From Adhaeribacter terrigena (GTDB lineage: Bacteria; Bacteroidota; Bacteroidia; Cytophagales; Hymenobacteraceae), in contig NZ_JAEHFX010000007.1 in assembly GCF_016623615.1 (NCBI RefSeq), positions 124,001 through 188,000 of the forward strand: a stretch of 64,000 bases of DNA, written 5' to 3'. Below, in pieces: positions 1,634-49,068 of this stretch; the first letter of the stretch is position 1, and the number at the start of each line of letters is the position of its first letter. A program made the translations under genes and the position numbers. Below the pieces are notes generated by a model. It made no database searches. It was not told where the DNA came from and worked only from the letters and a program-made list of their open reading frames with translations.

Positions 1634-2492
1634 TTTTTTATTTTGTTTTCTGTGCGTAAATGAAGCCAGGAAGGGTTAGATCTTAGTTTTTTTCTTTTGA
1701 AATTTTATCTATCATCTCGATGATAGGAGAGATCTCATCACGTTGGTAGTAATGTTTGCTATTGCGTTTTCAGGTCAGAAAGGATACCTTTTTTATAGCG
1801 AGCTTCAGATCTTAATTATTAATGTTTAATTATTAATTAAACATTCTCCCTCCAGCCGGGTGGCTTCGTTTCTGCGTTCGCGGCTGCAACCTTACCTGCC
1901 CTACCGGGCTGCCTGAAGGCACCGGTAAGCTTGGAGGCCGCTCTCACAGAAACTGGTATCATGCTCCTTTGTAGCCCGCTTCTTTTTAGTTTAGTTTTCT
2001 TCAGACCTTGGTTTTCAGGAAACGCTGCGCTGGCGATAGGCGTGAAACAACCACCCCCAACCCCTCCTTGGAAAGGAGGGGAGCTTTTGCTTCCTGCTTC
2101 CATTGAGTTTCTAAGAATGAAAGCATAGCATTTTATATTCTTTGGATTGCGGAATAGCTTCTAAAATTAAAGCTGGCTACGAATAGCTCCCCGCCTGGAC
2201 AGGAGGGGTTGGGGGTCGTTGACTACATTATCTGATCAAAAGCAGCTGATTTAGTTATTTAAATAAGGTCGATTCTGAAAATTCTTTAATTGGCTACGCC
2301 CAACTTCGTTTCTGTAAAGCCTGATTCAGACAAACGAAAAATCCTGCCAATCCCAAAAATCCTTAAAATCGTGTTCAGACAAATATTGATCGGATACTGT
2401 GCGGATAGGTCGCAACCTGTCCCTACAAGTTCTCTCCAAATCATAAAACCCTGAAAATTTTAGTTCAGACAACTTTCCTAAACTGGCTGCAT
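1634..2492. other. Gene-free, repeat-rich interval (859 bp)
   Basis: No convincing gene lies here; the short open frames (1837-2128) lack signals and run through repeats. It holds dispersed 35-bp repeat copies near 1777-1794 and 2117-2134 (both minus orientation), an inverted pair of CCCCTCC-type palindromes (2051-2084 and 2185-2218), a half palindrome resembling CAACCTGTCCCTAC (2410-2428), and a stretch 2339-2384 (AATCCT...CGTGTTCAGAC) that recurs at 49025-49073. It appears to be a landing site for intergenic repeats. Confidence 0.7.
2051..2218. repeat. REP-like inverted pair, gene-free
   Basis: The left arm (2051-2084) has a palindrome CCCCTCC-TTGGAAA-GGAGGGG preceded by CCCCCAA. The right arm (2185-2218) is its inverted counterpart, CTCCCCGCC-TGGAC-AGGAGGGG followed by TTGGGGG. 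About 100 bases separate the arms and carry one dispersed-repeat copy. The same family recurs at 36849, 39803, 41842 and their partners. Confidence 0.8.
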
Positions 2493-6179: not shown

Positions 6180-7094
6180 TTAATGCGGGCTGGTCTTTTT
6201 GGCTGGTTTCTTCTTTTTCTTCACTACCAACTCTTCGGTAAACTCAATGATCTTGCCGGCGATGTCGAGTTTGGTGGCTTTTTCGATTCCTTCCAGCCCC
6301 GGCGAAGAATTCACTTCCAGGATAAGCGGGCCGCGTTTCGATTGCAGCATGTCTACGCCGGCAATGTCCAGGCCCAGGGTTTTAGCTGCGAGCAAAGCTG
6401 CAGCTTTTTCGGCGCGGGTTAGTTTTACCAGGCTGCCGGTGCCGCCACGATGCAGGTTACTCCGGAATTCACCTTCTTTGCCCTGCCGTTTCATGGCGCC
6501 TACCACTTCGCCGTTCACAATAAAAGCCCGGATGTCGGCACCGTTGGCTTCCCGGATAAATTCCTGCACAATGATGCGGGCTTTTAAATTATGGAACGCT
6601 TCAATTACCGATTCAGCCGCTTTTTCGGTTTCGGCTAAAACCACGCCTAAGCCCTGCGTGCCTTCCAGCAGTTTAATTACGAGCGGAGCGCCGCCTACCT
6701 GGTTTATTAGTTCCTTTACTTTTACGCCGTAATTGGTAAAAGCTGTTTTGGGCATGCCCAGACCAGCTTTGGAAAGGATCTGCAAACAGCGCAGCTTATC
6801 ACGGGACCGCACAATGGCCTGCGAATCTACGGGACTTTTCACTTTCATCATTTCGAACTGGCGCACCACGGCCGTGCCGTAAAACGTAACCGAAGCGCCG
6901 ATGCGCGGAATAATGGCATCGATGCCGGTCAGCTTTTCGCCTTTGTACATAATATAAGGGTCGCCGGCTTCTATGATCAGGTCGCATTTTAAATGGTCGA
7001 GCACCAGTACGTCGTGGCCGCGTTGTTGGGCCGCTTCCACCAAACGGCGGGTGGAGTATAATTTAGCATTCCGCGAAAGGATCGCAATCTTCAT
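6180..7094 (-). CDS. rimK: Ribosomal protein S6 glutamate ligase RimK
   Basis: A 304-residue ATP-grasp enzyme that adds glutamate to the C-terminus of ribosomal protein S6. The typical RimK N-terminus ([18 protein letters not shown]) is followed by the pre-ATP-grasp domain (DAIIPRIG), the ATP-grasp core ([36 protein letters not shown]) and the metal-binding end ([17 protein letters not shown]). Length fits the family apart from a lysine-rich tail ([15 protein letters not shown]). A RimB-like protease gene lies further upstream on the same strand (8788-9273), but a glycosyltransferase gene on the other strand lies between them. A TAnnTTTG element (minus strand, 7200-7207) is a likely promoter, giving a leader of about 100 bases. 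Confidence 0.93.
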
Positions 7095-10897: not shown

Positions 10898-11707
10898 CTA
10901 CTTCCGCAGATCCGGGTGCTGTTTCAGATAATTCCCCACTTCGGCCAGTAAATGGCTGTGGCCGGTTTTGAGCGTAATTACCTGGCAGTTGTTCAGGGCG
11001 TTGGTAAAGAATTGTATGCCTTCAGCAGTAATGATCTTATCGAAAGTACCCAGGAAAACTACCATCGGAATTTCGGTGCGGTTGAGCAAATTGATCATGG
11101 CCGGCAGATCGAATTGCAACAGGCGGAAACCGGTCCAGCTTTTATAAATTTTCAGGCGTTTGGCGGGGCTGTTCATCTGGTACGCGGCAAAACGCAGCAT
11201 GCTGGGGTGCATAAGTTTGTAGCGGTTCAGGGTGTTTACAAACCGAAAAAAAGGCTGGGGCTTTACCACCGTCCGTTTAAAAAAGCCCGAAAGCCAGCTG
11301 GGATAGGTGGCTACGTTGTACCAGAAACTGGTTTTAATGCCGTCGGGTGCGACTAAAAAAACGCTATGGATTTTATCGAAAAAACCCTCCAGAACCGTTA
11401 GAGCAAACTTCCCGCCCATGCTGAAACCGGCTACCGAAAACGTATCGATTTGTTCTGCTTCGAGGAAGCGTTCCAGCAAATGCGTGAGCAATTCTTTGGT
11501 GAGCGGTTCGTGGTTTTTGGCCAGCCAGCTTTCTCCGTGAAAAAACAGATCGAACGCGTAAATGGTGTACATGCCTCTCAGCGCTTCGGCCACCGGTTCG
11601 TAAAACGAAAGATCCTGCCCGAAACCGTGAAAAGCCAGCAACACCCGCGGCCCGCGCCCGAGTTTCTGGTAATGCAGCCGGGTTTTTCCTTCAGTTATGA
11701 AAGGCAT
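10898..11707 (-). CDS. Alpha/beta hydrolase
   Basis: A 269-residue cytosolic alpha/beta-hydrolase. The oxyanion region is HGFGQDLSFY (residues 27-36), the nucleophile elbow is GFSMGG (Ser96), and the C-terminal histidine lies in LKTGHSHLL (near residue 252); a catalytic acid is probably the Asp in FLGTFDKIIT. There is no signal peptide. A long cap region (about 120-210, rich in Arg/Phe) fits lipase/esterase-like or MenH-like members, but the substrate cannot be stated. It is monocistronic, with dispersed repeat copies on both sides (10852-10872 and 11841-11858). Confidence 0.8.
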   Translation of the reverse strand: MPFITEGKTRLHYQKLGRGPRVLLAFHGFGQDLSFYEPVAEALRGMYTIYAFDLFFHGESWLAKNHEPLTKELLTHLLERFLEAEQIDTFSVAGFSMGGKFALTVLEGFFDKIHSVFLVAPDGIKTSFWYNVATYPSWLSGFFKRTVVKPQPFFRFVNTLNRYKLMHPSMLRFAAYQMNSPAKRLKIYKSWTGFRLLQFDLPAMINLLNRTEIPMVVFLGTFDKIITAEGIQFFTNALNNCQVITLKTGHSHLLAEVGNYLKQHPDLRK

Positions 11708-12604: not shown

Positions 12605-12636
12605 TTTTTCGAGCAAAAAGGATAGCGTTTTTAAAA
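12605..12636 (-). repeat. Dispersed 35-bp repeat copy (AAAACGSTA family)
   Basis: Minus-strand core AAAAACGCTATCCTTTTTGC. A second copy lies at 12693-12711, touching the ispH stop codon, and a perfect palindrome lies between the two. Confidence 0.8.
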
Positions 12637-12638
12637 AG

Positions 12639-12672
12639 AACGTAGCGCAGGGTTTAAACCCTGCGCTACGTT
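12639..12672. repeat. Perfect 34-bp palindrome
   Basis: The arm AACGTAGCGCAGGGTTT is followed directly by its exact reverse complement, with no loop. The same core (GTAGCGCAGG/CCTGCGCTAC) recurs as a slightly imperfect palindrome at 48974-49002. It lies between ispH and the DUF502 gene. Confidence 0.9.
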
Positions 12673-18589: not shown

Positions 18590-19573
18590 TTAATCCAAAT
18601 ATCCTTGCTTTTTCATCCATTCGTCGTTATACACCTTGCCTAAATAGCGGGTACCATGGTCTGGCAAAATAATAACCATTACGTCGTCTTCTTTCATGTG
18701 CTCGCGGGCGTATTCCAGTGCACCAAACACCGCCGAACCGGAAGACCAGCCCACAAACAAGCCTTCTTCTTTGGCTAAACGGCGGGTCATTAAAGCAGCG
18801 TCTTTATCAGTTACCTTTATGAATTGATCAATCAGGTCGAAATCTACGTTCTTGGGCAGAATATCTTCGCCGATGCCTTCGGTGGCATAAGAATAAATTT
18901 CATTCTCGTCGAAAATGCCGGTTTCCTTGTATTTTTTAAACACCGAACCGTAGGTATCCAGGCCAATGGCTTTTACGGCCGAATTCTGCTCTTTCAGGTA
19001 TTTGGAAATGCCGCAGATGGTGCCGCCGGTGCCTACGCCTGCCGCTAAAACGGTGATCTTGCCTTCGGTCTGGTTCCAGATCTCCGGGCCGGTTTGCTCG
19101 TAATGCGCCGCCGTGTTGGAAAGGTTATCGTACTGGTTCGGGTAAAAAGAATTCGGAATGTCTTTATTTAATTGCTTTGCTACCGAATAATACGAACGCG
19201 GATCGTCGGGCGTAACGTTGGTTGGGGTTACCACTACCTCCGCTCCTACAGCGCGCAGAATATCCATTTTCTCTTTGCTTTGCTTATCGGGCAGGGTAAA
19301 AATGCATTTATAGCCTTTCGCCTGCGCTGCCAATGCCAGGCCCATACCGGTATTGCCGGAAGTGCCTTCAATAATGGTTCCGCCTGGTTTCAGCAAGCCG
19401 GCTTTTTCAGCATCTTCGATCATGCGGATGGCCATACGGTCTTTTACCGAGTTGCCCGGGTTGAAATATTCTACTTTGGCCAGGATGGTGCCTTTTATGC
19501 CTACGGTTACTTTATTGAGCTTTACCAGCGGCGTGTTGCCAATGGCTTCGGTTATGTGGTTTAAGTAATGCAT
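18590..19573 (-). CDS. PLP-dependent cysteine synthase family enzyme
   Basis: A 327-residue fold-type II PLP enzyme. The PLP lysine is Lys44 (NPGNSVKDR); the substrate loop is EGTSGNTGMG and the phosphate loop GTGGTICG. It would make cysteine from O-acetylserine and sulfide. The C-terminus (GKVYNDEWMKKQGYL) is closer to cystathionine beta-synthase-like catalytic domains than to CysK proper, so it could make cystathionine from serine and homocysteine instead; there is no CBS regulatory domain. It is monocistronic, with a probable -7 element (TAACTTTG, minus strand, 19641-19648) about 70 bases upstream of the start. Confidence 0.88.
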   Translation of the reverse strand: MHYLNHITEAIGNTPLVKLNKVTVGIKGTILAKVEYFNPGNSVKDRMAIRMIEDAEKAGLLKPGGTIIEGTSGNTGMGLALAAQAKGYKCIFTLPDKQSKEKMDILRAVGAEVVVTPTNVTPDDPRSYYSVAKQLNKDIPNSFYPNQYDNLSNTAAHYEQTGPEIWNQTEGKITVLAAGVGTGGTICGISKYLKEQNSAVKAIGLDTYGSVFKKYKETGIFDENEIYSYATEGIGEDILPKNVDFDLIDQFIKVTDKDAALMTRRLAKEEGLFVGWSSGSAVFGALEYAREHMKEDDVMVIILPDHGTRYLGKVYNDEWMKKQGYLD

Positions 19574-35442: not shown

Positions 35443-36028
35443 TTATTGCGTCATTCTGAACGAAGCCGAGGAAACTTATGGAGTCGAATTAGTTCTTACC
35501 AAAAATATCATCCCAATAATGAGTGGCTAGCTCTTTCAATTTATCTAACGTTATTGGCTTACGCGCTTCGTCCAAAATTTCAAAATCATCACACTTAAAA
35601 ATAAGCTTCCCTCCTGAAAACAAATTTTCTAATGAATTGAAGCATCTGCAATGAACAAGAAGGTTTCCTGTTTCATAAATTTCTGCGCTTAGAATCTCAA
35701 GTTCAAGGTTGAAAATTTCCTTTGGATTGATAATAATCAGAGGTTCATCGGTCCAAGCGTCGAAACTTAAATTTTGAACATTTTTGAGTTCAATAAAAAA
35801 GTATTCAAAATCTTTGTTAATTAATTCGGCTAAATATTGAATACCAACTTTTAATTCAATATTTGGGTTGTTTTCAACTGCACTTACAATAACTCTATCG
35901 TGGAGCATATCGAAAAGGTCATTTAAGTCTTGTAAGTTATCCATAATGAATAAATAAATTTTCCCCGAAAACAAGATACAATAAAAGCCTCATAAGTTTC
36001 CTTGGCTTCGCTCGGAATGACGCAATAA
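35443..36028. mobile_element. 586-bp putative cassette with 38-bp inverted ends
   Basis: The left end (35443-35480, TTATTGCGTCATTCTGAACG then AAGCCGAGGAAACTTATG) and the right end (35991-36028) are inverted copies matching at 35 of 38 positions. Between them is a single orphan gene. No transposase and no clear target-site duplication are visible. The end sequence belongs to the GTCATTCTGA repeat family also found at 41901-42048 and 48151-48252. Confidence 0.65.
35489..35944 (-). CDS. Orphan protein inside inverted-repeat cassette
   Basis: A 151-residue acidic cytosolic protein of unknown function. I start at the ATG at 35944 because the longer frame depends on a TTG and enters the region near the right repeat arm. 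Visible features are an acidic N-terminal helix (DNLQDLNDLFDMLHDRVIV), a segment YLAELINKDFEYFFIELKNV, then beta-rich sequence with INPKEIFNLELEILSAEIYE and a C-terminal helix ending HYWDDIFG. Size and composition remind me of immunity-type proteins, but no family match can be claimed. It is more AT-rich than the flanking housekeeping genes. The stop is 8 bases from the left repeat arm, so gene and ends form one compact unit. Confidence 0.6.
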   Translation of the reverse strand: MDNLQDLNDLFDMLHDRVIVSAVENNPNIELKVGIQYLAELINKDFEYFFIELKNVQNLSFDAWTDEPLIIINPKEIFNLELEILSAEIYETGNLLVHCRCFNSLENLFSGGKLIFKCDDFEILDEARKPITLDKLKELATHYWDDIFGKN

Positions 36029-36077
36029 ATAAAAATTTCCCAAACCCTGCTGACAATCTGTTGTCATGAGCCGGTGG

Positions 36078-36085
36078 TAGCTTTG
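36078..36085 (+). promoter_or_regulatory. Likely -7 element of DinB gene
   Basis: TAGCTTTG matches TAnnTTTG, 28 bases before the ATG at 36114. A TTG at 36061 is closer than the usual -33 spacing. Confidence 0.4.
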
Positions 36086-36113
36086 TTCCATACTTCAAAA
36101 AACCACAAAAATT

Positions 36114-36608
36114 ATGGAAAACACGTTAGAAAAAACCGCTACTGCTACTTTCATTTCCCCTGCCGATATGCTGGCGCACTGGCAGGGGCATCGCAACTTA
36201 ACCCGCCGGGTAATTGCCGCTTTCCCGGAAAAAGAACTGTTCGAATTTTCAATTGGCGGAATGCGGACGTTCTCAGCCATCGTACAGGAGCTTTTGGCGC
36301 TTGGTGCACCAGGCTTGCGGCAAATCGCTATGGAAACCAACGAAAAACTAAACGAAGACATTAAAGAAGCCAACTCCAAAGAAAACATCCTGCGCCTTTG
36401 GGATGAATCGACCGCAGAAATAACCCAACTTTGGTCGAAAATTCCGGCGGAGCGATTCAACGAAAAGATCGTGGCTTTCGGGCAGTACGAAGGCACCGTG
36501 TGGTCTACCATTCTTTACTACATCGATAACGAAATTCACCACCGCGGACAAGGTTATGTGTATCTGCGCGCTTTAAATATTGAGCCACCTTTTTTCTGGG
36601 AACGCTAA
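36114..36608 (+). CDS. DinB family protein
   Basis: A 164-residue four-helix-bundle protein of the DinB/YfiT-like superfamily. Likely metal ligands are the His in LAHWQGHRNLTRRV (near residue 21) and the HH pair in NEIHHRGQGYVYLR (near residues 143-144), spaced as in the family. Members are thiol- or metal-dependent transferases or of unknown role. The next gene starts 10 bases later on the same strand, so they form an operon. It sits just outside the inverted-repeat cassette. Confidence 0.85.
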   Translation: MENTLEKTATATFISPADMLAHWQGHRNLTRRVIAAFPEKELFEFSIGGMRTFSAIVQELLALGAPGLRQIAMETNEKLNEDIKEANSKENILRLWDESTAEITQLWSKIPAERFNEKIVAFGQYEGTVWSTILYYIDNEIHHRGQGYVYLRALNIEPPFFWER

Positions 36609-36618
36609 TTCCGGCATT

Positions 36619-36840
36619 ATGAAAACAGTACTGGTATTCAGAACGTCGGTGGCCACACCGCAACAGGCCGGCCGGCTAAAACCCGTATTGGATAACCTGA
36701 TGCATACCCGCGAAAAGTGGAACTTCGACCTGGAAGATTGCGACCGCATTCTCCGGGTCGAAGCTTTTACCTTGCAGGCGCAGGTTATCATTGAAAAGCT
36801 GAACCGCGAAGGTTTTTTCTGCGCCGAACTGGAAGATTAA
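36619..36840 (+). CDS. Small ferredoxin-fold-like protein
   Basis: A 73-residue protein from the ATG at 36619 (10 bases after the DinB stop). Its pattern, beta (KTVLVFRTSV) - helix (QQAGRLKPVLDNLMH) - beta (KWNFDLEDCDRILRVEAF) - helix (QVIIEKLNREG) - beta (FFCAEL), resembles the HMA/ferredoxin-like fold, but the metal-binding CxxC is absent and is replaced by SVATPQ. It may be a scaffold or a metal-free relative. Function unknown. Confidence 0.6.
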   Translation: MKTVLVFRTSVATPQQAGRLKPVLDNLMHTREKWNFDLEDCDRILRVEAFTLQAQVIIEKLNREGFFCAELED

Positions 36841-36848
36841 CTTACCAG

Positions 36849-36974
36849 TTTAGCCGAAACTACCCCTTTGAAGGGGGCTGGGGGATGTTTTTTTCTGTTT
36901 CTTTCTAAGGAGTTTGTCAGTAAAACCCATTCTCTAAGGTGTAAACACCCCTCTAACTCCCCTCAAGGGGAGAA
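36849..36974. repeat. REP-like inverted pair, gene-free
   Basis: The left arm CCCCTTTGAAGGGGGCTGGG (36862-36881) and the right arm CCCCTCTAACTCCCCTCAAG (36948-36967, followed by GGGAG) are inverted relatives about 65 bases apart. The family is the one that encloses the DUF559 gene at 39.8 kb. Confidence 0.8.
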
Positions 36975-37012
36975 TCCTAAATAGCAAGACTCTTCGAAAT
37001 CCATAGAGAGGA

Positions 37013-37999
37013 TTAACCGACCAATTCCAGCGTAGGAAATTTTAGATTAGCCGTTGCTTTTTCCAGCAATTCGCTAACCTTCTCGCGGAAGCTTTCCGGT
37101 GAAATTATTTCCGCGCAATCGCCGAACATCAGGTAATACCGCGCCAAACCTTCAGTACAGCTGCCGGTTTTAAAGGTCATTTCTACAGCGTCAGCTAAAA
37201 TATTTTCCGACACAAAACCGTAGTATTTCCGGCCCGATTCCATAAACCGGGCAAATTCTTTCTGCACTTTTATTACCACTTCCGTTTCGCCTTCCGGCAT
37301 TTCTCTTTGTTTCCGGAAATCGGCTACGTTATCGTGTTGTTGGGTGAAGGGTTTATCGGTGCGTTTTAAGCCGATCATCCGGTCGGTGCGGAACTGGCGG
37401 TAACTCTGGCGCAGGTGGCAATAGGCAAAAATGTACCAGCGGTTGTGTTCATTAAACAAACCTACCGGCTCAATAATGCGGTTAGAGGCTTCTTCTGAAT
37501 ACAACGATTTATATTCCAGCGCTACCTGCTTTTTTTCGGCAATGCTGATCATAATCAGGCTCAGCGCATCGGGCGTATTCTCATTAAAAACCTTTCCCGA
37601 ATTGTTTACCCAAACCTGCGTTTCCAGGGCCGCGATCTGGTCTTTGGTATTTGCCCGCAGCACCGATTTCACCTTAAACACCGCCGATTCGAAACTGGCG
37701 CCCAGACTTTTATCACTGAATTTCTGCATCAGTTTTTCGGCGGCTACAAAGCTGCTTGCTTCTTCGGGCGTAAACATAACCGGCGGCAACCGGTACCCTT
37801 CCAGCAACGAATACCCCACTCCTGCTTCCCCGGCAACCGGCACGCCGGATGCTTCCAGGGATTTTATATCGCGGTAAATGGTGCGCAGGCTAACCTCAAA
37901 ACGGTCGGCCAGTTCCTGCGCCTTCACCACCCGGCCCGATTGCAGGTGAATAAAAATAGCCACAATGCGGTCGAAGCGGTTCAGGGTTTCGGTATCCAT
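37013..37999 (-). CDS. WYL-domain transcriptional regulator (YafY type)
   Basis: A 328-residue regulator. The N-terminal DeoR-like helix-turn-helix (VKAQELADRFEVSLRTIYRDI, about 19-41) is followed by the wing GVGYSLLEGYRLPP. The WYL domain is around 145-225, with EPVGLFNEHNRWYIFAYC in the expected place, and a C-terminal WCX domain follows. WYL proteins sense nucleic acid or nucleotide ligands; those beside DinB-like genes are often local regulators. It is convergent with the DinB pair and divergent from the propeller lipoprotein gene at 38156. A -7 element (minus strand, 38021-38028) lies 22 bases upstream. Confidence 0.9.
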   Translation of the reverse strand: MDTETLNRFDRIVAIFIHLQSGRVVKAQELADRFEVSLRTIYRDIKSLEASGVPVAGEAGVGYSLLEGYRLPPVMFTPEEASSFVAAEKLMQKFSDKSLGASFESAVFKVKSVLRANTKDQIAALETQVWVNNSGKVFNENTPDALSLIMISIAEKKQVALEYKSLYSEEASNRIIEPVGLFNEHNRWYIFAYCHLRQSYRQFRTDRMIGLKRTDKPFTQQHDNVADFRKQREMPEGETEVVIKVQKEFARFMESGRKYYGFVSENILADAVEMTFKTGSCTEGLARYYLMFGDCAEIISPESFREKVSELLEKATANLKFPTLELVG

Positions 38000-38020
38000 A
38001 GTCTGAGAAGGTTAGCCTAT

Positions 38021-38028
38021 CAAATTTA
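38021..38028 (-). promoter_or_regulatory. Likely -7 element of the WYL regulator gene
   Basis: TAAATTTG on the minus strand matches TAnnTTTG and leaves a short leader. Confidence 0.5.
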
Positions 38029-38062
38029 ATAAAACCCTGAATTAAAAGCTGGTAAATAAAAC

Positions 38063-38070
38063 TATATTTG
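38063..38070 (+). promoter_or_regulatory. Likely -7 element of the propeller lipoprotein gene
   Basis: TATATTTG matches TAnnTTTG on the plus strand, about 85 bases before the ATG at 38156. The divergent WYL promoter is only 35 bases away. Confidence 0.45.
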
Positions 38071-38155
38071 AAAACTTTCTGCTGCCTTTTTACCCCGGCT
38101 GAATGTAAGTAAAGTTGCTTATTAAATTGCTTTCACCCATTCAAAACCTATCGCA

Positions 38156-39271
38156 ATGACCCAGCCAAGCTTCTTCCGAATCCCGATCCTTCCACTGCTG
38201 TTCATTTTAGCGTTTATCACTTCCTGCAACGGCCAAAGTAAAACGAACTTACCTCAGGAAAACTCCGGAAAACTCCAAACATCCGAAATTGGTCAGGCGA
38301 AAATTATAAAAGCCCAAAACGCAGGGCATGGTAATGTACATTGCGGGTTGCAGGATAAGGCCGGGAATCTTTGGTTTGGCACTACCAACGAAGGCGTTTA
38401 CCGCTACAATGGAAAATCGTTCGTAAATTTTACCCAGAAAGACGGCCTCAATAGCAATAATATTGCTGCAATCCTGGAAGATAAAGCGGGGAACATTTGG
38501 CTTGGCACCAACGCCGGCCTTTGCAAATTCGACGGTAAAAAATTCACCACTATTCCGCTTGGCAATTATTTTAACACTACCCCTACTTCGAATGCATCCG
38601 CTAAAATCCCGCCGGCAAAGAATGCGGTTTGGAGCATAATGCAGGATAAAACCGGGATTATCTGGTTTGGCACCTTCGACGATGGCGTTTATCTCTACGA
38701 TGGCAAAACGTTTACTCATTTTTTACACAACAATCCGGTTGAAAATAAAAGTAACCTGCAGCTGAAAACAATTACTTCCATTATAGAAGATAGATCCGGA
38801 AATGTCTGGTTTTCTACCTGGTTTGAAGGGTTAAGCCGGTTTGACGGAAAATCCTTAACGAATTTCAGGCCGGATAACGAAGTATGGCACGCTGGGCTAC
38901 TGGAAGATAAAAACGGAAATATCTGGATCGGCAGAAGAAGTAAAGGGGTAAGCCTTTATGATGGAAAAACCTTTACCAATGTGCTGCAGCACAGCACCTT
39001 CGATTCCTGCAGCGTACTGCCTTTATTACAAGATAGCAAGGGAAATATTTGGTTCGGCACGATACACAGTAATTTAGGTAGAAGAGAAAAATCAGGTGGC
39101 TTGTGGCGTTACGATGGTAAAACCTTTAAGAATTTTACCGCGGCAGATGGTTTGAAAAATAATGCAATCTGGAGTGCAGAAGAAGATAAAAATGGCAACA
39201 TCTGGCTGGGAGCCAACAACACGGAACTATACCGATACGATGGCAAAACTTTCACTAAATTTTCGGAATAA
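38156..39271 (+). CDS. Lipoprotein with two-component-regulator-type propeller
   Basis: A 371-residue lipoprotein (LLFILAFITSCNGQ, lipid Cys near residue 24). The mature part is a series of about seven Reg_prop blades, each ending GNIWLGT/GNIWFGT and followed by YDGKTFTNF-like sequence, for example EDKAGNIWLGTNAGLCKFDG. This propeller is best known as the periplasmic sensor of hybrid two-component systems, but here it stands alone with no membrane helix or kinase domain. It may bind a glycan or present the propeller on the outer membrane; that is inference. It is AT-richer than the average gene here. Confidence 0.85.
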   Translation: MTQPSFFRIPILPLLFILAFITSCNGQSKTNLPQENSGKLQTSEIGQAKIIKAQNAGHGNVHCGLQDKAGNLWFGTTNEGVYRYNGKSFVNFTQKDGLNSNNIAAILEDKAGNIWLGTNAGLCKFDGKKFTTIPLGNYFNTTPTSNASAKIPPAKNAVWSIMQDKTGIIWFGTFDDGVYLYDGKTFTHFLHNNPVENKSNLQLKTITSIIEDRSGNVWFSTWFEGLSRFDGKSLTNFRPDNEVWHAGLLEDKNGNIWIGRRSKGVSLYDGKTFTNVLQHSTFDSCSVLPLLQDSKGNIWFGTIHSNLGRREKSGGLWRYDGKTFKNFTAADGLKNNAIWSAEEDKNGNIWLGANNTELYRYDGKTFTKFSE

Positions 39272-39354
39272 AAAATCAGCCGAACAACAACATCTACTTT
39301 ATTAATTTCCACAATTTTGTTTTATAATCATAAGGAAAAATTATCGCAGAAAAA

Positions 39355-39403
39355 TTTGAGTAGCCAAATAACTACACATATATTTGTAGTCAAATAGCTA
39401 CAC
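39355..39403 (+). promoter_or_regulatory. arsR-type promoter with overlapping operator
   Basis: TTTG (39355-39358), a 20-base spacer and TATATTTG (39379-39386) form a full promoter. The -7 box lies inside an inverted repeat ACTACA-N8-TGTAGT (39371-39390), and a 13-base direct repeat CAAATARCTACAC occurs at 39365-39377 and 39391-39403. A dimeric ArsR-type repressor bound here would block its own transcription. Confidence 0.7.
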
Positions 39404-39404
39404 G

Positions 39405-39740
39405 ATGAATTTAAGACGCGACGTATTCCAGGCCATAGCCGACCCCACCCGAAGAGCCATCCTGCTTTTGGTAGCTTCCCAGGCCATGACGGCCGGGGCC
39501 ATAGCCTCCAATTTTGACACCGCCAGGCCTACCGTTTCCAAACACCTGCAAATACTGACCGAATGCGAATTGCTACAGCAGGAGCAAAACGGCCGGGAGA
39601 TCTACTACCATATAAACGCCAAAAAGATGAAAGCCGTAGCCGATTTCCTGGAGCCCTTCCGCGAAATGTGGGACGACCGTTTCAACATACTGGAAGCCAT
39701 TATGAAAGCCAAGATGAAGGAAGACCGGAGGGAGAAATAA
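39405..39740 (+). CDS. ArsR/SmtB-type transcriptional regulator
   Basis: A 111-residue winged-helix repressor: [20 protein letters not shown], then the recognition region [20 protein letters not shown] and wing [19 protein letters not shown]. It has no metal-binding CxC motif and matches the subfamily (SdpR-like) that is normally encoded directly beside an SRPBCC/AHSA1 gene. Here the SRPBCC gene is 633 bases further on (40374), and the gap is filled by an inverted-repeat pair with a DUF559 gene. It probably autoregulates through the operator overlapping its promoter. Confidence 0.9.
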
Positions 39741-39802
39741 ACCTGCGAAAAAAGTTTCCTTTAGAGGGGATAGCGGGAGAAAACCACGCATTGCCGAAGA
39801 TT

Positions 39803-40281
39803 CTCCCCTTGAGGGGAGTTAGAGGGGTGTTAAACGTGCTGTAAACTTAAACTGTGAAAAATGAAAAATCCGATCATCCCATACCGGAAAGATCTTCGGA
39901 CTAAAGCAAAGGAACTAAGGAATAACAGTACGTTATCCGAAATTTTGCTTTGGAACGAAATTAAAAACAGGCAGATAGATGGGTTTCAATTCCACAGACA
40001 AGTTCCAATGCTCGATTTCATAGTAGATTTTTATTCGCACGAACTGAAACTTGTTATTGAAATAGATGGGGATAGTCATAATGACAAAGTGGAATATGAT
40101 GATTCAAGACAGCAGAAATTGGAAGCTTATGGCGTAAGATTTCTTCGATTTGATGATTTGGAGGTAAAGCGGAATATGCGGTGGGTTTTGAATGAGATCT
40201 GGGAACAGGTTCAGGGATTGAAAAAATCGTTGGAAATGGGAGAATGAAAAACACCCCTCCGGCTCCCCTGAAGGGGAGAGT
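39803..40281. mobile_element. REP-like inverted pair enclosing a DUF559 gene
   Basis: The left arm (39803-39835) reads CTCCCCTTGAGGGGAG then TTAGAGGGGTGTT. The right arm (40248-40281) reads AAACACCCCTCCGGCTCCCC then TGAAGGGGAG, an inverted relative. Inside is only the DUF559 gene, whose stop codon (40245-40247) touches the right arm. A further related stretch (39762-39780, TTAGAGGGGATAGCGGGAG) lies outside the left arm. The unit sits between an ArsR gene and its expected SRPBCC partner. Confidence 0.7.
39861..40247 (+). CDS. DUF559 (Vsr-like) endonuclease domain protein
   Basis: A 128-residue protein of the DUF559 family, related to very-short-patch-repair endonucleases with a PD-(D/E)xK fold. 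It begins with the usual RKDLRTKAKELRNNSTLSE, then LLWNEIKNRQIDGFQFHRQ. The catalytic core is DFIVDFYSHELKLVIEIDG, with Asp56, Glu67 and Asp69, followed by GDSH, a degenerate arginine segment (DDSRQQKLEAYGVRFLRF) and a C-terminal helix. The key acidic residues are intact. It lies tightly between inverted REP-like arms, which is why I suspect it acts on or spreads those repeats, as RAYT transposases do with REP sequences. Biochemical activity of DUF559 proteins is not established. Confidence 0.88.
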   Translation: MKNPIIPYRKDLRTKAKELRNNSTLSEILLWNEIKNRQIDGFQFHRQVPMLDFIVDFYSHELKLVIEIDGDSHNDKVEYDDSRQQKLEAYGVRFLRFDDLEVKRNMRWVLNEIWEQVQGLKKSLEMGE

Positions 40282-40327
40282 ATCGGATAACGTAAAAGGA
40301 TTCTTCCCCACCCTTCCAACCGATAAC

Positions 40328-40344
40328 CAAAAACGCTAGGCAAT
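40328..40344 (+). repeat. Partial dispersed-repeat copy
   Basis: CAAAAACGCTAGGCAATAAC resembles the family core. A second partial copy (AAAACGCTATGGAAAAG, 40366-40382) spans the ATG of the SRPBCC gene. Confidence 0.45.
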
Positions 40345-40373
40345 AACGAAAAAAACCACAAAACTAAAACGCT

Positions 40374-40838
40374 ATGGAAAAGAAGACAAAAATCCACGCC
40401 GAAGATGGTAAGCAGGATCTGGTGATTACCCGGGAATTTGAGCTGCCGTTGGAGTATCTTTTTAAAGCCTATGTGGAGCCCGAAATTGTGGAGCAATGGA
40501 TGGGCACGAAAGTGCTGAAACTGGAAAACCAAAAGCACGGCAGCTGGCAATTCGAAACCACCGATCCGAAAGGCAACAAACACGGCTTTAATGGCGTGAT
40601 CCACGAATTTGTACCGAACCAGAAAATTACACGGACCTTCGAAATGGAAAATACGCCGTTTCCGGTGCAGCTGGAATTCCTGGAATTTGAAAAACTTACC
40701 GATGACACCAGCAAACTAACGATGCAGATCGTGTACCGTTCGGTTGCCGACCGGGACCAGATGCTGAAGCTGCCTTTCGCGCAGGGCATAAATATGGCGC
40801 ATAACCGCTTACAGGAAATTGTAAAAAACTTAATCTAA
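40374..40838 (+). CDS. SRPBCC/AHSA1-family protein
   Basis: A 154-residue START-like protein (Activator of Hsp90 homolog 1-like). Signature segments are LVITREFELPLEYLFKAYVEPEIVEQWMG near the N-terminus (residues 18-46), the central strands ITRTFEMENTPFPVQLEFLEF, and the last helix AQGINMAHNRLQEIVKNL. The fold has a deep hydrophobic ligand pocket, but no ligand is known. Such genes usually overlap or abut an ArsR-type regulator gene; here they are separated by the DUF559 unit. The DoxX-like gene follows after 6 bases. Confidence 0.88.
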   Translation: MEKKTKIHAEDGKQDLVITREFELPLEYLFKAYVEPEIVEQWMGTKVLKLENQKHGSWQFETTDPKGNKHGFNGVIHEFVPNQKITRTFEMENTPFPVQLEFLEFEKLTDDTSKLTMQIVYRSVADRDQMLKLPFAQGINMAHNRLQEIVKNLI

Positions 40839-40844
40839 AACCTT

Positions 40845-41228
40845 ATGACAAAGCGAAACAAAATAATCTATTGGGTGGCTACCTGCTGGCTTGCTTTAGG
40901 AATGCTATCGACCGGAATGGTGCAGTTATTAAAAGTGGAATCGGAAGTAGAAAACATTACCAAACTGGGCTATCCGGAATATTTTTTAATCATCCTGGGT
41001 ATCTGGAAAATCCTGGGAGTTTCCGTGGTGCTTATGCCTAAATTTCTGTTGCTGAAAGAATGGGCGTATGCCGGCTTTTTCTTTGCAATGTCGGGCGCTA
41101 CGTTTTCCCGGATCTTAGCCGGCGATCCCGTTAACGCCATATTTCCTTCATTGCTGCTTTTGGTGCTGACGGTGGTATCCTGGTATTTCCGGCCGGCCGA
41201 TAGAAAGCTTGTTGCTGTTAATTCCTGA
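40845..41228 (+). CDS. DoxX-like membrane protein
   Basis: A 127-residue protein with four membrane helices (YWVATCWLALGMLSTGMVQLL, FLIILGIWKILGVSVVLM, WAYAGFFFAMSGATFS, IFPSLLLLVLTVVSWYF). The VTKLGYPEYF-type segment here is ENITKLGYPEYF, diagnostic of the DoxX-like family. It is in the same transcript as the SRPBCC gene (6-base gap) and the YdeI-type gene (4-base gap). Role unknown. Confidence 0.88.
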   Translation: MTKRNKIIYWVATCWLALGMLSTGMVQLLKVESEVENITKLGYPEYFLIILGIWKILGVSVVLMPKFLLLKEWAYAGFFFAMSGATFSRILAGDPVNAIFPSLLLLVLTVVSWYFRPADRKLVAVNS

Positions 41229-41232
41229 ACGT

Positions 41233-41811
41233 ATGAATCCGAAGGTTGATTTTTATTTCAAAAAAGCCGGCAAGTGGCAGGAAGAACTGGCACATTTGCG
41301 AACGATTATGCTGGATTGCGAACTGACAGAAGAACTGAAATGGGGCGTTCCCTGCTATACCTTGGAGAAAAGCAACGTGGTTTTAATTCACGGTTTTAAA
41401 GAATATTGCGCGCTGATGTTTGTAAAAGGTGCCTTATTGAAAGACCCCAGTAATATCCTGATCCAACAAACCGAAAATGTGCAGGCTGGGCGCCAGATCC
41501 GGTTCACCAATGTGCAGGAAATTGTGACTTTGGAGCCCATTTTGAAAGCCTATATTCAGGAAGCCATTGAAGTAGAAAAAGCCGGTTTGAAAGTGGAGTT
41601 GAAGAAACCTTCGGAATTCGCAATGGCCGAAGAATTTCAAACGAAACTAACAGAAAACCCTGCTCTGAAAACTGCCTTCGAAGCTTTAACGCCCGGCCGG
41701 CAACGCGCTTACCTGCTGCATTTTTCGCAACCCAAACAAGCCAAAACCCGCGAAGCCCGCGTTGAAAAATGTATGCCGCAGATTTTCGCCGGAAAAGGGT
41801 TGAATGATTAA
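41233..41811 (+). CDS. YdeI/DUF1801-type protein
   Basis: A 192-residue protein from the ATG at 41233 (the longer frame starts at a TTG inside the DoxX gene). The N-terminal DUF1801-like domain contains LTEELKWGVPCYTLEKSNVVLI and FKEYCALMFVKGALL; the C-terminal helical YdeI part includes KTAFEALTPGRQRAYLLHFSQ and AKTREARVEKCM. This two-part layout matches the YdeI/OmpD-associated family, common next to SRPBCC and DoxX-like genes. Function unknown; cytosolic. Confidence 0.88.
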   Translation: MNPKVDFYFKKAGKWQEELAHLRTIMLDCELTEELKWGVPCYTLEKSNVVLIHGFKEYCALMFVKGALLKDPSNILIQQTENVQAGRQIRFTNVQEIVTLEPILKAYIQEAIEVEKAGLKVELKKPSEFAMAEEFQTKLTENPALKTAFEALTPGRQRAYLLHFSQPKQAKTREARVEKCMPQIFAGKGLND

Positions 41812-41841
41812 GTGACGTTAAGTAACCAAGAGGAAAATCAC

Positions 41842-42092
41842 ACTTTGAAGGGGGTTAGGGACAATGCCATCAACTTAAAATAAAGATTTATACATTATTT
41901 GGTCATTCTGAGCCTGTCGAAGAAACTATTTAGTACTTCTATGGAATTTTGAGCGATTGAGCGATAAATTCCTTTCGCTCAGGTTTTTTGATAAGCTTTC
42001 TTGCGGGTTCGGTACGCGTTAGTTCCCTCGGCTTCGCTCGGGATGACCAGATAATGTAAAAATCCTCCCTCTAACCCCCTCCAAAGGGGGAC
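41842..42092. repeat. REP-like inverted pair (outer)
   Basis: The left arm ACTTTGAAGGGGGTTAGGG and the right arm CCCTCTAACCCCCTCCAAAG are inverted relatives enclosing ~200 bases. Confidence 0.75.
41901..42048. repeat. GTCATTCTGA-family inverted pair (inner)
   Basis: The left arm GGTCATTCTGAGCCTGTCGA and the right arm (minus strand) GGTCATCCCGAGCGAAGCCG are inverted relatives, nested inside the REP-like pair; no gene inside. Confidence 0.7.
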
Positions 42093-42253
42093 AAAAAACC
42101 TTGCACAACGTCAGTAATTAAGATCGTTGGCGTGAAAATAAATTGAACATTTTTTAAGATATTACCTACTTTGCAAACCTCCGGATTCCTTTTTGAGCAG
42201 TTACAAAACGCTATGGAATAAGCCGGAAAAACTAAAAATTAAGCATTAATCTG

Positions 42254-42667
42254 ATGGGTAAATTAGCCGAAATAAAAACCAAAGAAAACACCGCCAGCGT
42301 GGAAGACTTTATCAATTCCATTCCGGACGAAACCAAACGCCAAGACAGTTTCCGCATCTTGGAATTAATGCAAAAGGCATCCGGCGAAACGGCTAAAATG
42401 TGGGGAGCTTCGATGATCGGGTTTGGTAATAAGATCTACAAAAGCCCGACATCCGGCCGGGAAGTTGCCTGGTTTAAAATGGGTTTTGCGCCGCGAAAAG
42501 CCAACCTTTCTTTTCACCTCCTTAACCTGAAGCAACACGCCGCCGCCCTGGAAAAATTGGGTAAACACAAAACCGGCGAAGGTTGTCTGTACATCAATAA
42601 ACTGGCCGATGTGAACCTGACCGTTTTAGAGGAAATAATTAACGCGACTGCTAAAAATGAGCACTAA
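42254..42667 (+). CDS. DUF1801 domain protein
   Basis: A 137-residue cytosolic protein. The motifs EDFINSIPDETKRQDSFRIL, ETAKMWGASMIGFG, WFKMGFAPRKANLSFHLL and KTGEGCLYINKLADV are those of DUF1801. The fold is found in many bacteria; function is unknown. It overlaps the following DUF4256 gene by 11 bases, so the two are translationally coupled. Confidence 0.88.
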   Translation: MGKLAEIKTKENTASVEDFINSIPDETKRQDSFRILELMQKASGETAKMWGASMIGFGNKIYKSPTSGREVAWFKMGFAPRKANLSFHLLNLKQHAAALEKLGKHKTGEGCLYINKLADVNLTVLEEIINATAKNEH

Positions 42668-43220
42668 AAAGGAATTGCCGGAAGAGCAAAGGAACGAACT
42701 GCTCCGCGTTTTGAAAGCCCGTTTCGAGAAAAACCAGAACCGCCATAAGGGAATTGCGTGGGCCGACGTTCAGGCCCGCCTGGAAGCGAATCCGGAAAAG
42801 CTGTGGAGCCTGGATGAAATGGAACTGACAGAAGGTGAGCCGGATGTGGTGGGTTTTGATGCCCAGACGCGCGAATACATTTTTTACGATTGCGCCGCCG
42901 AAAGTCCGAAAGGGCGCCGGAGTATTTGCTACGACCACGAAGCGCTGGAAAGCAGGAAAGAACATAAACCGAAAAACAGCGCGTTGGGAATGGCCGCGGA
43001 AATGGGCATCGAGATTTTAACCGAAGACCAATACCGGGAACTGCAGCAACTTGGCAAGTTCGATACGAAAACGTCGAGCTGGGTGAAAACGCCGGCGGCC
43101 ATCAGAGAACTGGGCGGGGCCCTCTTTTGCGACCGCCGCTACAACCAGGTTTTCACGTATCACAACGGGGCGGAATCTTACTATGCCGCCAGGGGATTTC
43201 GGGGTTCGTTGCGGGTTTGA
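42657..43220 (+). CDS. DUF4256 family protein
   Basis: A 187-residue protein matching DUF4256 by recall: LLRVLKARFEKNQNRHKGIAW, LWSLDEMELTEGEPDVVGFD, FYDCAAESPKGRRSICYD, ILTEDQYRELQQLGKFDTKT and the late RYNQVFTYHNGAESYYAARGF. The last part resembles a nucleic-acid or nucleotide pocket, but no function is known. It is the last gene of the mid-GC part of the island; the DNA becomes much more AT-rich after 43.25 kb. Confidence 0.85.
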   Translation: MSTKKELPEEQRNELLRVLKARFEKNQNRHKGIAWADVQARLEANPEKLWSLDEMELTEGEPDVVGFDAQTREYIFYDCAAESPKGRRSICYDHEALESRKEHKPKNSALGMAAEMGIEILTEDQYRELQQLGKFDTKTSSWVKTPAAIRELGGALFCDRRYNQVFTYHNGAESYYAARGFRGSLRV

Positions 43221-48969: not shown

Positions 48970-48973
48970 CGAA

Positions 48974-49002
48974 AGTAGCGCAGGGTTTAAACCTGCGCTA
49001 CT
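48974..49002. repeat. Near-perfect palindrome (GTAGCGCAGG family)
   Basis: AGTAGCGCAGG-GTTTAAA-CCTGCGCTACT, an 11-bp stem with the same core as the perfect 34-bp palindrome at 12639-12672. Confidence 0.85.
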
Positions 49003-49068
49003 GTTCAAAATTCTGATAGCATCCCTAAAATCCTTTTCATCAACAAAATCCCTGAAATCGTGTTCAGA

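Follow-up and report, generated by a model that had tools for sequence, protein, structure and literature searches.

This locus raises the question of why a small gene of the DUF559 family, enclosed by two inverted palindromes, lies between an ArsR-family regulator gene and an SRPBCC gene, and whether it got there as a mobile or once-mobile cassette, as proposed by the original prediction. In the window, i.e., the whole stretch of 64,000 nucleotides of Adhaeribacter terrigena DNA analysed here, the ArsR gene (39405-39740, plus strand) and the SRPBCC (AHSA1) gene (40374-40838, plus strand), both identified as open reading frames (ORFs) with Pfam matches, are the upstream and downstream halves of a split operon, the ArsR stop at 39740 being separated from the SRPBCC start at 40374 by a gap of 633 nt. 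The only gene in this gap, at 39861-40247 of the plus strand, encodes a 128-residue DUF559 protein (PF04480; Pfam, 5.2e-31). An inverted-repeat search placed a REP-like repeat on each side of it, the left at 39802-39831 (plus strand) and the right, an inverted copy of the left, at 40250-40279 (minus strand); the two arms are 87% complementary across 30 nt and enclose a spacer of 418 nt. A hairpin scan located a perfect 7-bp hairpin in each arm, namely CTCCCCTTGAGGGGAG at 39803-39818 and CTCCCCTGAAGGGGAG at 40263-40278; the G-rich tail of the left repeat, TTAGAGGGGTGTT, is directed at the gene, and the DUF559 stop codon lies 2 nt from the right arm. The flank-to-flank inverted-repeat score of this unit was 22, compared with a 99th percentile of 16.2 and a maximum of 24 among 483 shifted controls. 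Chance palindromes were rejected as the source of the arms on the basis of the shifted controls and the palindrome counts given below, and an Rfam scan of positions 36000-43000 returned no RNA family at the gathering score. The flanked DUF559 gene is thus confirmed as a real feature, and both the enclosure of exactly one gene by the arms and the splitting of the operon were as originally described.

The structure model of the protein (pLDDT 88.5) matched 3hrl (Z 15.2), I-Bth0305I (3r3p, Z 12.5) and Vsr (1cw0, Z 9.7), and sequence profiles matched the first two of these (2e-23 and 9e-4, respectively); Pfam, the alignment and the model together place the protein in the Vsr / I-Bth0305I nuclease fold. 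Its only Pfam matches were to DUF559/MTES_1575, Pfam listing DUF559 among its families of unknown function, while PADLOC weakly matched a restriction enzyme of the methyl-directed type (8.2e-5) and NCBIfam gave a match below its cut-off. Alignment of 34 proteins revealed 13 invariant columns, including E27, D56, E67, D69, H73 and D80, all of which are present in the window's protein, in agreement with the claim that its catalytic acids are intact. Among domains of at least 95 amino acids, all six residues were kept in 110 of 113 that stand alone and in 33 of 34 that lie in frame, it being noted that the units were picked by family profile, which biases them towards intact domains. When the DUF559 genes of this genome were paired with those of Adhaeribacter soli, dN was 0.07-0.15 against a dS of 1.05-1.40 in three pairs, dS not being computable for the fourth; this signature of purifying selection argues for the DUF559 protein being an active nuclease.

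Empty sites and intragenomic copying

A total of 39 genomes, the window's own included, were searched for the surroundings of the cassette, and close SRPBCC relatives (73-88% identity) were found in nine others. In all nine, the ArsR gene is located 2-12 nt upstream of the SRPBCC gene with no insert, which led us to reject DUF559 as a conserved member of this operon, the ArsR-DUF559-SRPBCC order being shared by none of the nine. The empty site that the original prediction had called for in sister strains was thereby found, A. soli being one of the nine; in it the two genes are joined as TAA-AACGCT-ATG, with a gap of 6 nt as opposed to 633 nt in the window. Relative to this empty site, the added segment spans 39741-40367 (about 627 nt), although its ends are uncertain by a few nucleotides because TAAA is present at both edges. 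No consistent target duplication was found, this 4-nt TAAA being one possible instance at the window site.

The reverse comparison was also informative. The closest relative of the window's DUF559 protein (88%) is encoded in A. soli, a member of the same genus, at a different site, where it lies between two genes read as being of the 5'-nucleotidase type and has gene-free repeat pairs on both sides. The corresponding genes abut in the window's genome (68% identity for the first gene), again with no insert, and the same cassette therefore occupies different sites in the sister species, each site being empty in the other. Of the five DUF559 genes in the window's genome, four are matched by A. 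soli counterparts (70-88% identity), and the context differs in all four; a second reciprocal-site comparison turned up nothing in A. soli that matches the neighbouring gene. On the evidence of these genome comparisons, cassettes of the DUF559 family, the window's own included, can be said to insert at new sites.

Copying within one genome was encountered in a Pontibacter contig (L056), which carries two copies about 5.6 kb apart that are 96.5% identical across 599 nt. Their identity begins at the tip of a palindrome that belongs to another class and ends about 10 nt beyond the right-hand palindrome of the cassette, and this pair documents, at the level of sequence, one case of intragenomic copying with its ends at palindromes. 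Another nearly identical pair (L068/L081) is truncated by the end of a locus. As a separate observation, DUF559 genes also follow one another in tandem, at a distance of about 560-580 nt, at positions 1431-2391 of locus L235 (genome G093) and at G092:C1:2788352-2789239.

Flanking repeats, gene-free repeats and the nuclease lineage

The arrangement seen in the window is a common one among the units surveyed. A left-right inverted repeat scoring above 17 was present in 81 of 117 DUF559 units, as against 8 of 692 shifted controls that reached 17, the 117 being those with enough flank after 8 near locus ends and repeated units had been dropped. A gene-based control on 96 loci gave a similar picture, as 17 was reached by 30 of 62 DUF559 ORFs but only 28 of 760 neighbouring ORFs, and by 12 of the 243 short ones. 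Thus, the association is strong, although DUF559 genes that lack flanking palindromes, which would count against the original prediction, do exist (36 of the 117 had no repeat above 17). The surveyed units are mostly from Bacteroidota, but those above the threshold include records of Balneolaceae, Chlorobiaceae, Cloacimonadota, Deinococcus, Sphingomonas and Pseudanabaena. Of the ten units taken from the plasmid collection, seven lacked such flanking repeats, namely those of E. coli, Neisseria, Photobacterium, Shinella, Azospirillum, Sinorhizobium and Picosynechococcus (score 15). The orientation of the nearest hairpins in 154 units varied, with tails pointing inward in 26 and outward in 28, unclear in 51, a hairpin on one side only in 42 and none in 7. 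It is to be noted that strong flanking repeats are not confined to DUF559; a 161-residue non-DUF559 ORF in the window (35489-35974, minus strand) has a flanking inverted repeat of score 36, and is possibly another mobile unit, and a 183-residue non-DUF559 ORF of Botryobacter ruber (contig L053, 2358-2909) has one of score 47.

Palindromes that follow the family should be scarce in genomes devoid of it, and this was examined in a survey of 247 genomes of the window's class, in which DUF559 presence was defined as E <= 1e-15. Since a strict stem rule finds only a few hairpins (14 in 400 kb of contig C17, and 2 in the reversed sequence), a looser pattern was used for palindrome counts; with CCCCTN{2,14}AGGGG, the window's genome had 130 palindromes versus 6 in the reversed control. 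Summed palindromes and controls were 5302 and 1345 in the 104 genomes with DUF559, but 2306 and 2308 in the 143 without, and the palindrome excess tracked DUF559 presence (Mann-Whitney p 3.5e-16). The difference was reached by none of 5000 within-genus permutations, performed on the 18 genera with both kinds of genome (69 genomes), and among genomes with DUF559 the excess ratio correlated with the DUF559 copy number (rho 0.46). The excess was below 20 in 57 of the 104 genomes having DUF559. In general, therefore, palindromes are not abundant where DUF559 is absent, as the virtually equal sums of 2306 and 2308 indicate, but six of those 143 genomes (G081, G112, G174, G175, G215 and G256) did exceed their control by at least 20.

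In the window's genome, inspection by eye revealed palindromes near all five stand-alone DUF559 genes, of a class specific to each gene, with one arm degenerate at two of the units (L002 and L005); no palindromes were seen at two weaker matches, a 163-residue Vsr-like protein (L006) and a 621-residue frame (L007). Many of the repeats consist of a hairpin with C-run and G-run arms and, no more than 2-4 nt beyond it, a tail made of a G-run, the hairpins having been chosen for such a tail: GGGG stood 2-4 nt from the foot in 154 of 192 hairpins that had been preselected for GGGG within 6 nt of it, most commonly preceded by TA, CA, GA or CC. A repeat-like pattern, TCATCCCGAGC, occurred in 5 of 265 loci.

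The original prediction held that the palindromes of the cassette also occur as gene-free pairs elsewhere in the window, and this proved partly correct. One such pair is present, its right member at 36957-36972 (minus strand) being of the cassette's class, but its left member at 36863-36876 (plus strand), found by the hairpin scan, is a different hairpin; at the matching site of A. soli, both arms of this full gene-free pair are of the window cassette's class. Two further palindromes of the window are not the cassette's but are similar to those found at two more DUF559 genes in this genome: the repeat at 2061-2081 (minus strand), with an imperfect partner at about 2187-2208 as read by eye, is of the class flanking L003, and that at 42075-42090 (minus strand), from the hairpin scan, resembles the class at L005. 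In A. soli, positions 7006-7093 of segment L265 hold a gene-free pair of the window's class with the build of the cassette minus its gene, as expected for a putative non-autonomous copy. When the gene-free hairpins of the window's genome were scored against its own units, 16 of 28 reached at least 20, and for 10 of 28 no one of 107 other sources (A. soli being set aside) gave a higher score than the own units; the hairpins with the lowest scores were terminator-like, and some others fitted the units of other genomes better. Taken strictly, 34 of 46 own-genome palindromes among those listed belonged to classes of own or A. soli units.

A few other repeats of the window are recorded here in their own right. 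AAAACGCTA has 22 copies in the window, on both strands (e.g., at 11358, 28329, 40330, 40366 and 53105), versus 1.5 expected; further copies lie close to four of this genome's five DUF559 units and in loci of A. soli, and the SRPBCC start is overlapped by a copy both here and at the empty site of A. soli. It looks like a separate short motif of Adhaeribacter. Repeats of about 35-40 nt at 12635-12672 and 48971-49009 are common to both strands of an A. soli segment (about 19367-19408), and a stretch of 45-62 nt at 45564-45626 matches four places in a 19.5-kb A. soli segment, one of which is the start of a long match.

Further evidence came from the pairing of repeat and nuclease, examined in 71 units from 30 genomes (the window's and 29 relatives), with different surroundings in 2383 of the 2398 cross-genome pairs. 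The proportion of pairs with a repeat score of at least 20 rose from 2% below 35% nuclease identity to 91% at 65-80% identity. The test statistic was 0.395, against a mean of 0.107 (sd 0.029) when repeats were shuffled within genomes, and 0 of 5000 shuffles reached the observed value. These pairings demonstrate, as far as they can be read from the units compared, that the repeat class and the nuclease lineage evolve together. Along with the reciprocal empty sites, they bear out the proposal of a mobile or once-mobile cassette as judged from the genomes compared.

Cassettes in frame within host proteins

Not all cassettes are intergenic. Among 150 DUF559 matches listed, at least 68 lie in open frames of 300 or more amino acids, and frames longer than 240 amino acids hold 34 of the 154 fetched units. 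Host names being readings of the sequences, a palindrome-DUF559-palindrome unit was found in frame in leucyl-tRNA synthetase (LeuRS) and MetH (two sites each), RecJ, acetyl-CoA synthetase (Acs) and IleRS, and further in a UvrD/RecB-like helicase, HsdR and methylases, whereas a fusion of the C-terminal type was located at the end of a PurL-type protein. The palindromes themselves are translated here, into peptides such as PSPKERG and PSPRGEG. Since the nine genomes with a LeuRS insertion each had one strong LeuRS match, no copy besides the interrupted one was found; the frame ends after the insertion in a single one of these genomes (G217, L243). Similarly, MetH of G003 (L127) shifts frame past the insertion, whereas that of G021 reads through. 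The MetH insertion is absent from genomes of the same genus in both cases (G016, G011 and G006 compared with G021; G008, G013, G018 and G023 compared with G003), and MetH insertions replace linker sequence with no clear target duplication.

The insertion sites recur, in that seven LeuRS units share one site and five MetH units another. In the domain tree, a group of 35 rows (SH-aLRT 99) contains 27 in-frame units, with the hosts mixed inside it, while the HsdR unit falls outside, as do two of the three units in methylases; the LeuRS-site label cannot be explained by fewer than two gains or losses along well-supported branches, in a tree with few columns and many open forks. This phylogeny documents that one clade, as delimited here, settled in frame inside conserved proteins. 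Its significance lies in the insertion of an element with an apparently intact nuclease into essential genes, in frame and with no sign of splicing.

Competing explanations and comparison with known systems

Overall, the reciprocal empty sites, the cognate pairing and the palindrome survey support the interpretation of the original prediction, and we regard as probable a mobile cassette that consists of a gene for a small Vsr/EDxHD-type nuclease and two inverted, lineage-specific hairpin repeats, with the gene-free repeats as its non-autonomous relatives and the nuclease as the driver of its spread. We infer that spread would occur by hairpin cutting and break repair: the nuclease would recognise its own hairpin, probably in extruded or single-stranded form, and nick or break the DNA there, after which host repair would copy the repeat-bounded segment to another place. 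Since a hydrolytic enzyme, unlike the RAYT tyrosine transposase, is not expected to rejoin strands, insertion would be completed by recombination or repair.

Several other explanations were weighed against this cassette. Strict homing, in which the nuclease cuts the empty allele of a host gene and recombination between horizontally arriving alleles copies the cassette, the palindromes being tolerated linkers or terminators, would account for the recurrent LeuRS and MetH sites and for the repeated gains or losses of the LeuRS-site label, and the closest characterised fold is indeed that of a homing endonuclease; we nonetheless find it unlikely, as it explains neither the cognate pairing of repeats between unrelated sites, nor the gene-free copies, nor the insertions at intergenic places that are unrelated to one another. 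A nuclease of host repair or defence, next to which repeats accumulate as both settle in tolerant intergenic places, is suggested by the Vsr fold, by the weak PADLOC match and by several proteobacterial DUF559 genes without flanking repeats. Small neighbouring ORFs, however, are seldom flanked in this way (12/243), the left and right repeats match one another as well as the nuclease lineage, and the cassette is also found within essential coding sequence, which makes this explanation very unlikely.

Another candidate for the mover is a RAYT tyrosine transposase acting on ordinary REPs, with DUF559 as a passenger caught between them. PF01797 matches were found in 31 of the 39 genomes searched, some ORFs read as Y1 transposases are themselves flanked by inverted repeats (L066 and L078), and RAYT subclass 2.6 of Bacteroidetes is described, in the available part of the source, as having atypical flanking structures with copies elsewhere (PMC6006769). 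However, RAYT is disfavoured as the mover in the window's genome, where PF01797 found nothing at E <= 0.001 although palindromes number 130 versus 6; four more genomes without PF01797 (G015, G016, G024 and G037) have a palindrome excess, G016 with a single DUF559 and no Y1 having 123 palindromes versus 10. Conversely, G038 with eight Y1 (12 versus 5) and G030 with five (20 versus 5), neither with a DUF559 match, are poor in palindromes, and the repeat class tracks the DUF559 lineage, all of which renders a RAYT mover highly improbable. A function of the hairpins in terminating transcription or stabilising mRNA, with no role in mobility, is hardly credible: some do directly follow stop codons, that of the window unit included, but they also stand on both sides of the gene, within open reading frames and at the ends of the duplicated segment.

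If the nuclease-driven cassette is correct, many DUF559 members gain a likely role as movers of their own hairpin repeats, and REP-like repeats gain a candidate enzyme in a genome in which no tyrosine transposase was found. What mobilises REPs that lack a transposase was left open for the CGTC-tagged REPs in the available text of PMC3733652, and becomes testable for the DUF559-linked class. Among the abstract openings of papers in which DUF559 occurs, in literature mostly outside subscription journals, none announced a link between the family and palindromes.

With respect to known systems, the CGTC REPs, which according to the same partial text apparently have no dedicated transposase (PMC3733652), share with the present repeats the REP-like palindrome without an adjacent tyrosine transposase; the repeats here are C-run/G-run hairpins, and one CGTC-type core, GTCATTGCGAG, occurred in 0 of 265 loci. 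Rickettsia palindromic elements (RPEs), as described in the consulted sections of PMC10969869, also lie in frame within protein genes. The likeness, drawn from that description, concerns the in-frame units, the window unit being intergenic; the in-frame elements here contain an intact nuclease domain, whereas those sections name no mobilising gene for RPEs. DDE insertion sequences and MITEs likewise have inverted repeats, but the only gene of the present unit is DUF559, with no DDE transposase. Likeness to Vsr very short patch repair is one of fold only (1cw0, Z 9.7).

The nuclease fold is shared with I-Bth0305I and Vsr (Z 12.5 and 9.7), and the conserved E...D...H...D of the EDxHD homing endonucleases may correspond to E27, D56, H73 and D80, the assignment of motif letters being our reading. 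In the portion of PMC3943268 available, I-Bth0305I has an extended DNA-binding region, whereas DUF559 here is one small domain without it; EDxHD enzymes can be free-standing too (same portion, PMC3943268), but the flanking palindromes and gene-free copies set the present units apart. Neither intron nor intein encoding was indicated for the window unit by Rfam (36000-43000, gathering score) or by its Pfam matches.

The closest parallel is the RAYT/REPtron system. Both have a gene between two inverted palindromic repeats (the window unit; 81/117 units), gene-free repeats or pairs elsewhere in the genome and a repeat abundance that follows the gene, and repeat and nuclease co-evolve, as is reported of RAYTs with their REPs in the accessible part of PMC2817692. 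REPs are also known inside genes, e.g., in recB (PMC3733652, in the text available), although the in-frame clade here carries a whole nuclease domain. The G-run tail differs, and the GT(A/G)G tetranucleotide of the REP hairpin foot is absent from the window's two repeats. The RAYT enzyme is an HUH tyrosine transposase, and that of the present units a DUF559/Vsr-fold nuclease (PF04480). The cassette thus appears to resemble the REP/RAYT system in its workings while being run by an unrelated nuclease; it is not a RAYT by the test of its enzyme, nor, on the matches of the window unit, a spliced homing element. We lean, by a little, towards a separate class of selfish elements of bacteria, occurring in Bacteroidota as well as in several further phyla, whose hairpin repeats would be spread by their own hydrolytic Vsr-fold nuclease instead of by a tyrosine or DDE transposase. 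One lineage of this class would have turned into a passenger domain that is in frame and not spliced, within essential enzymes present as single copies, to be lost by the host, therefore, only through precise excision.
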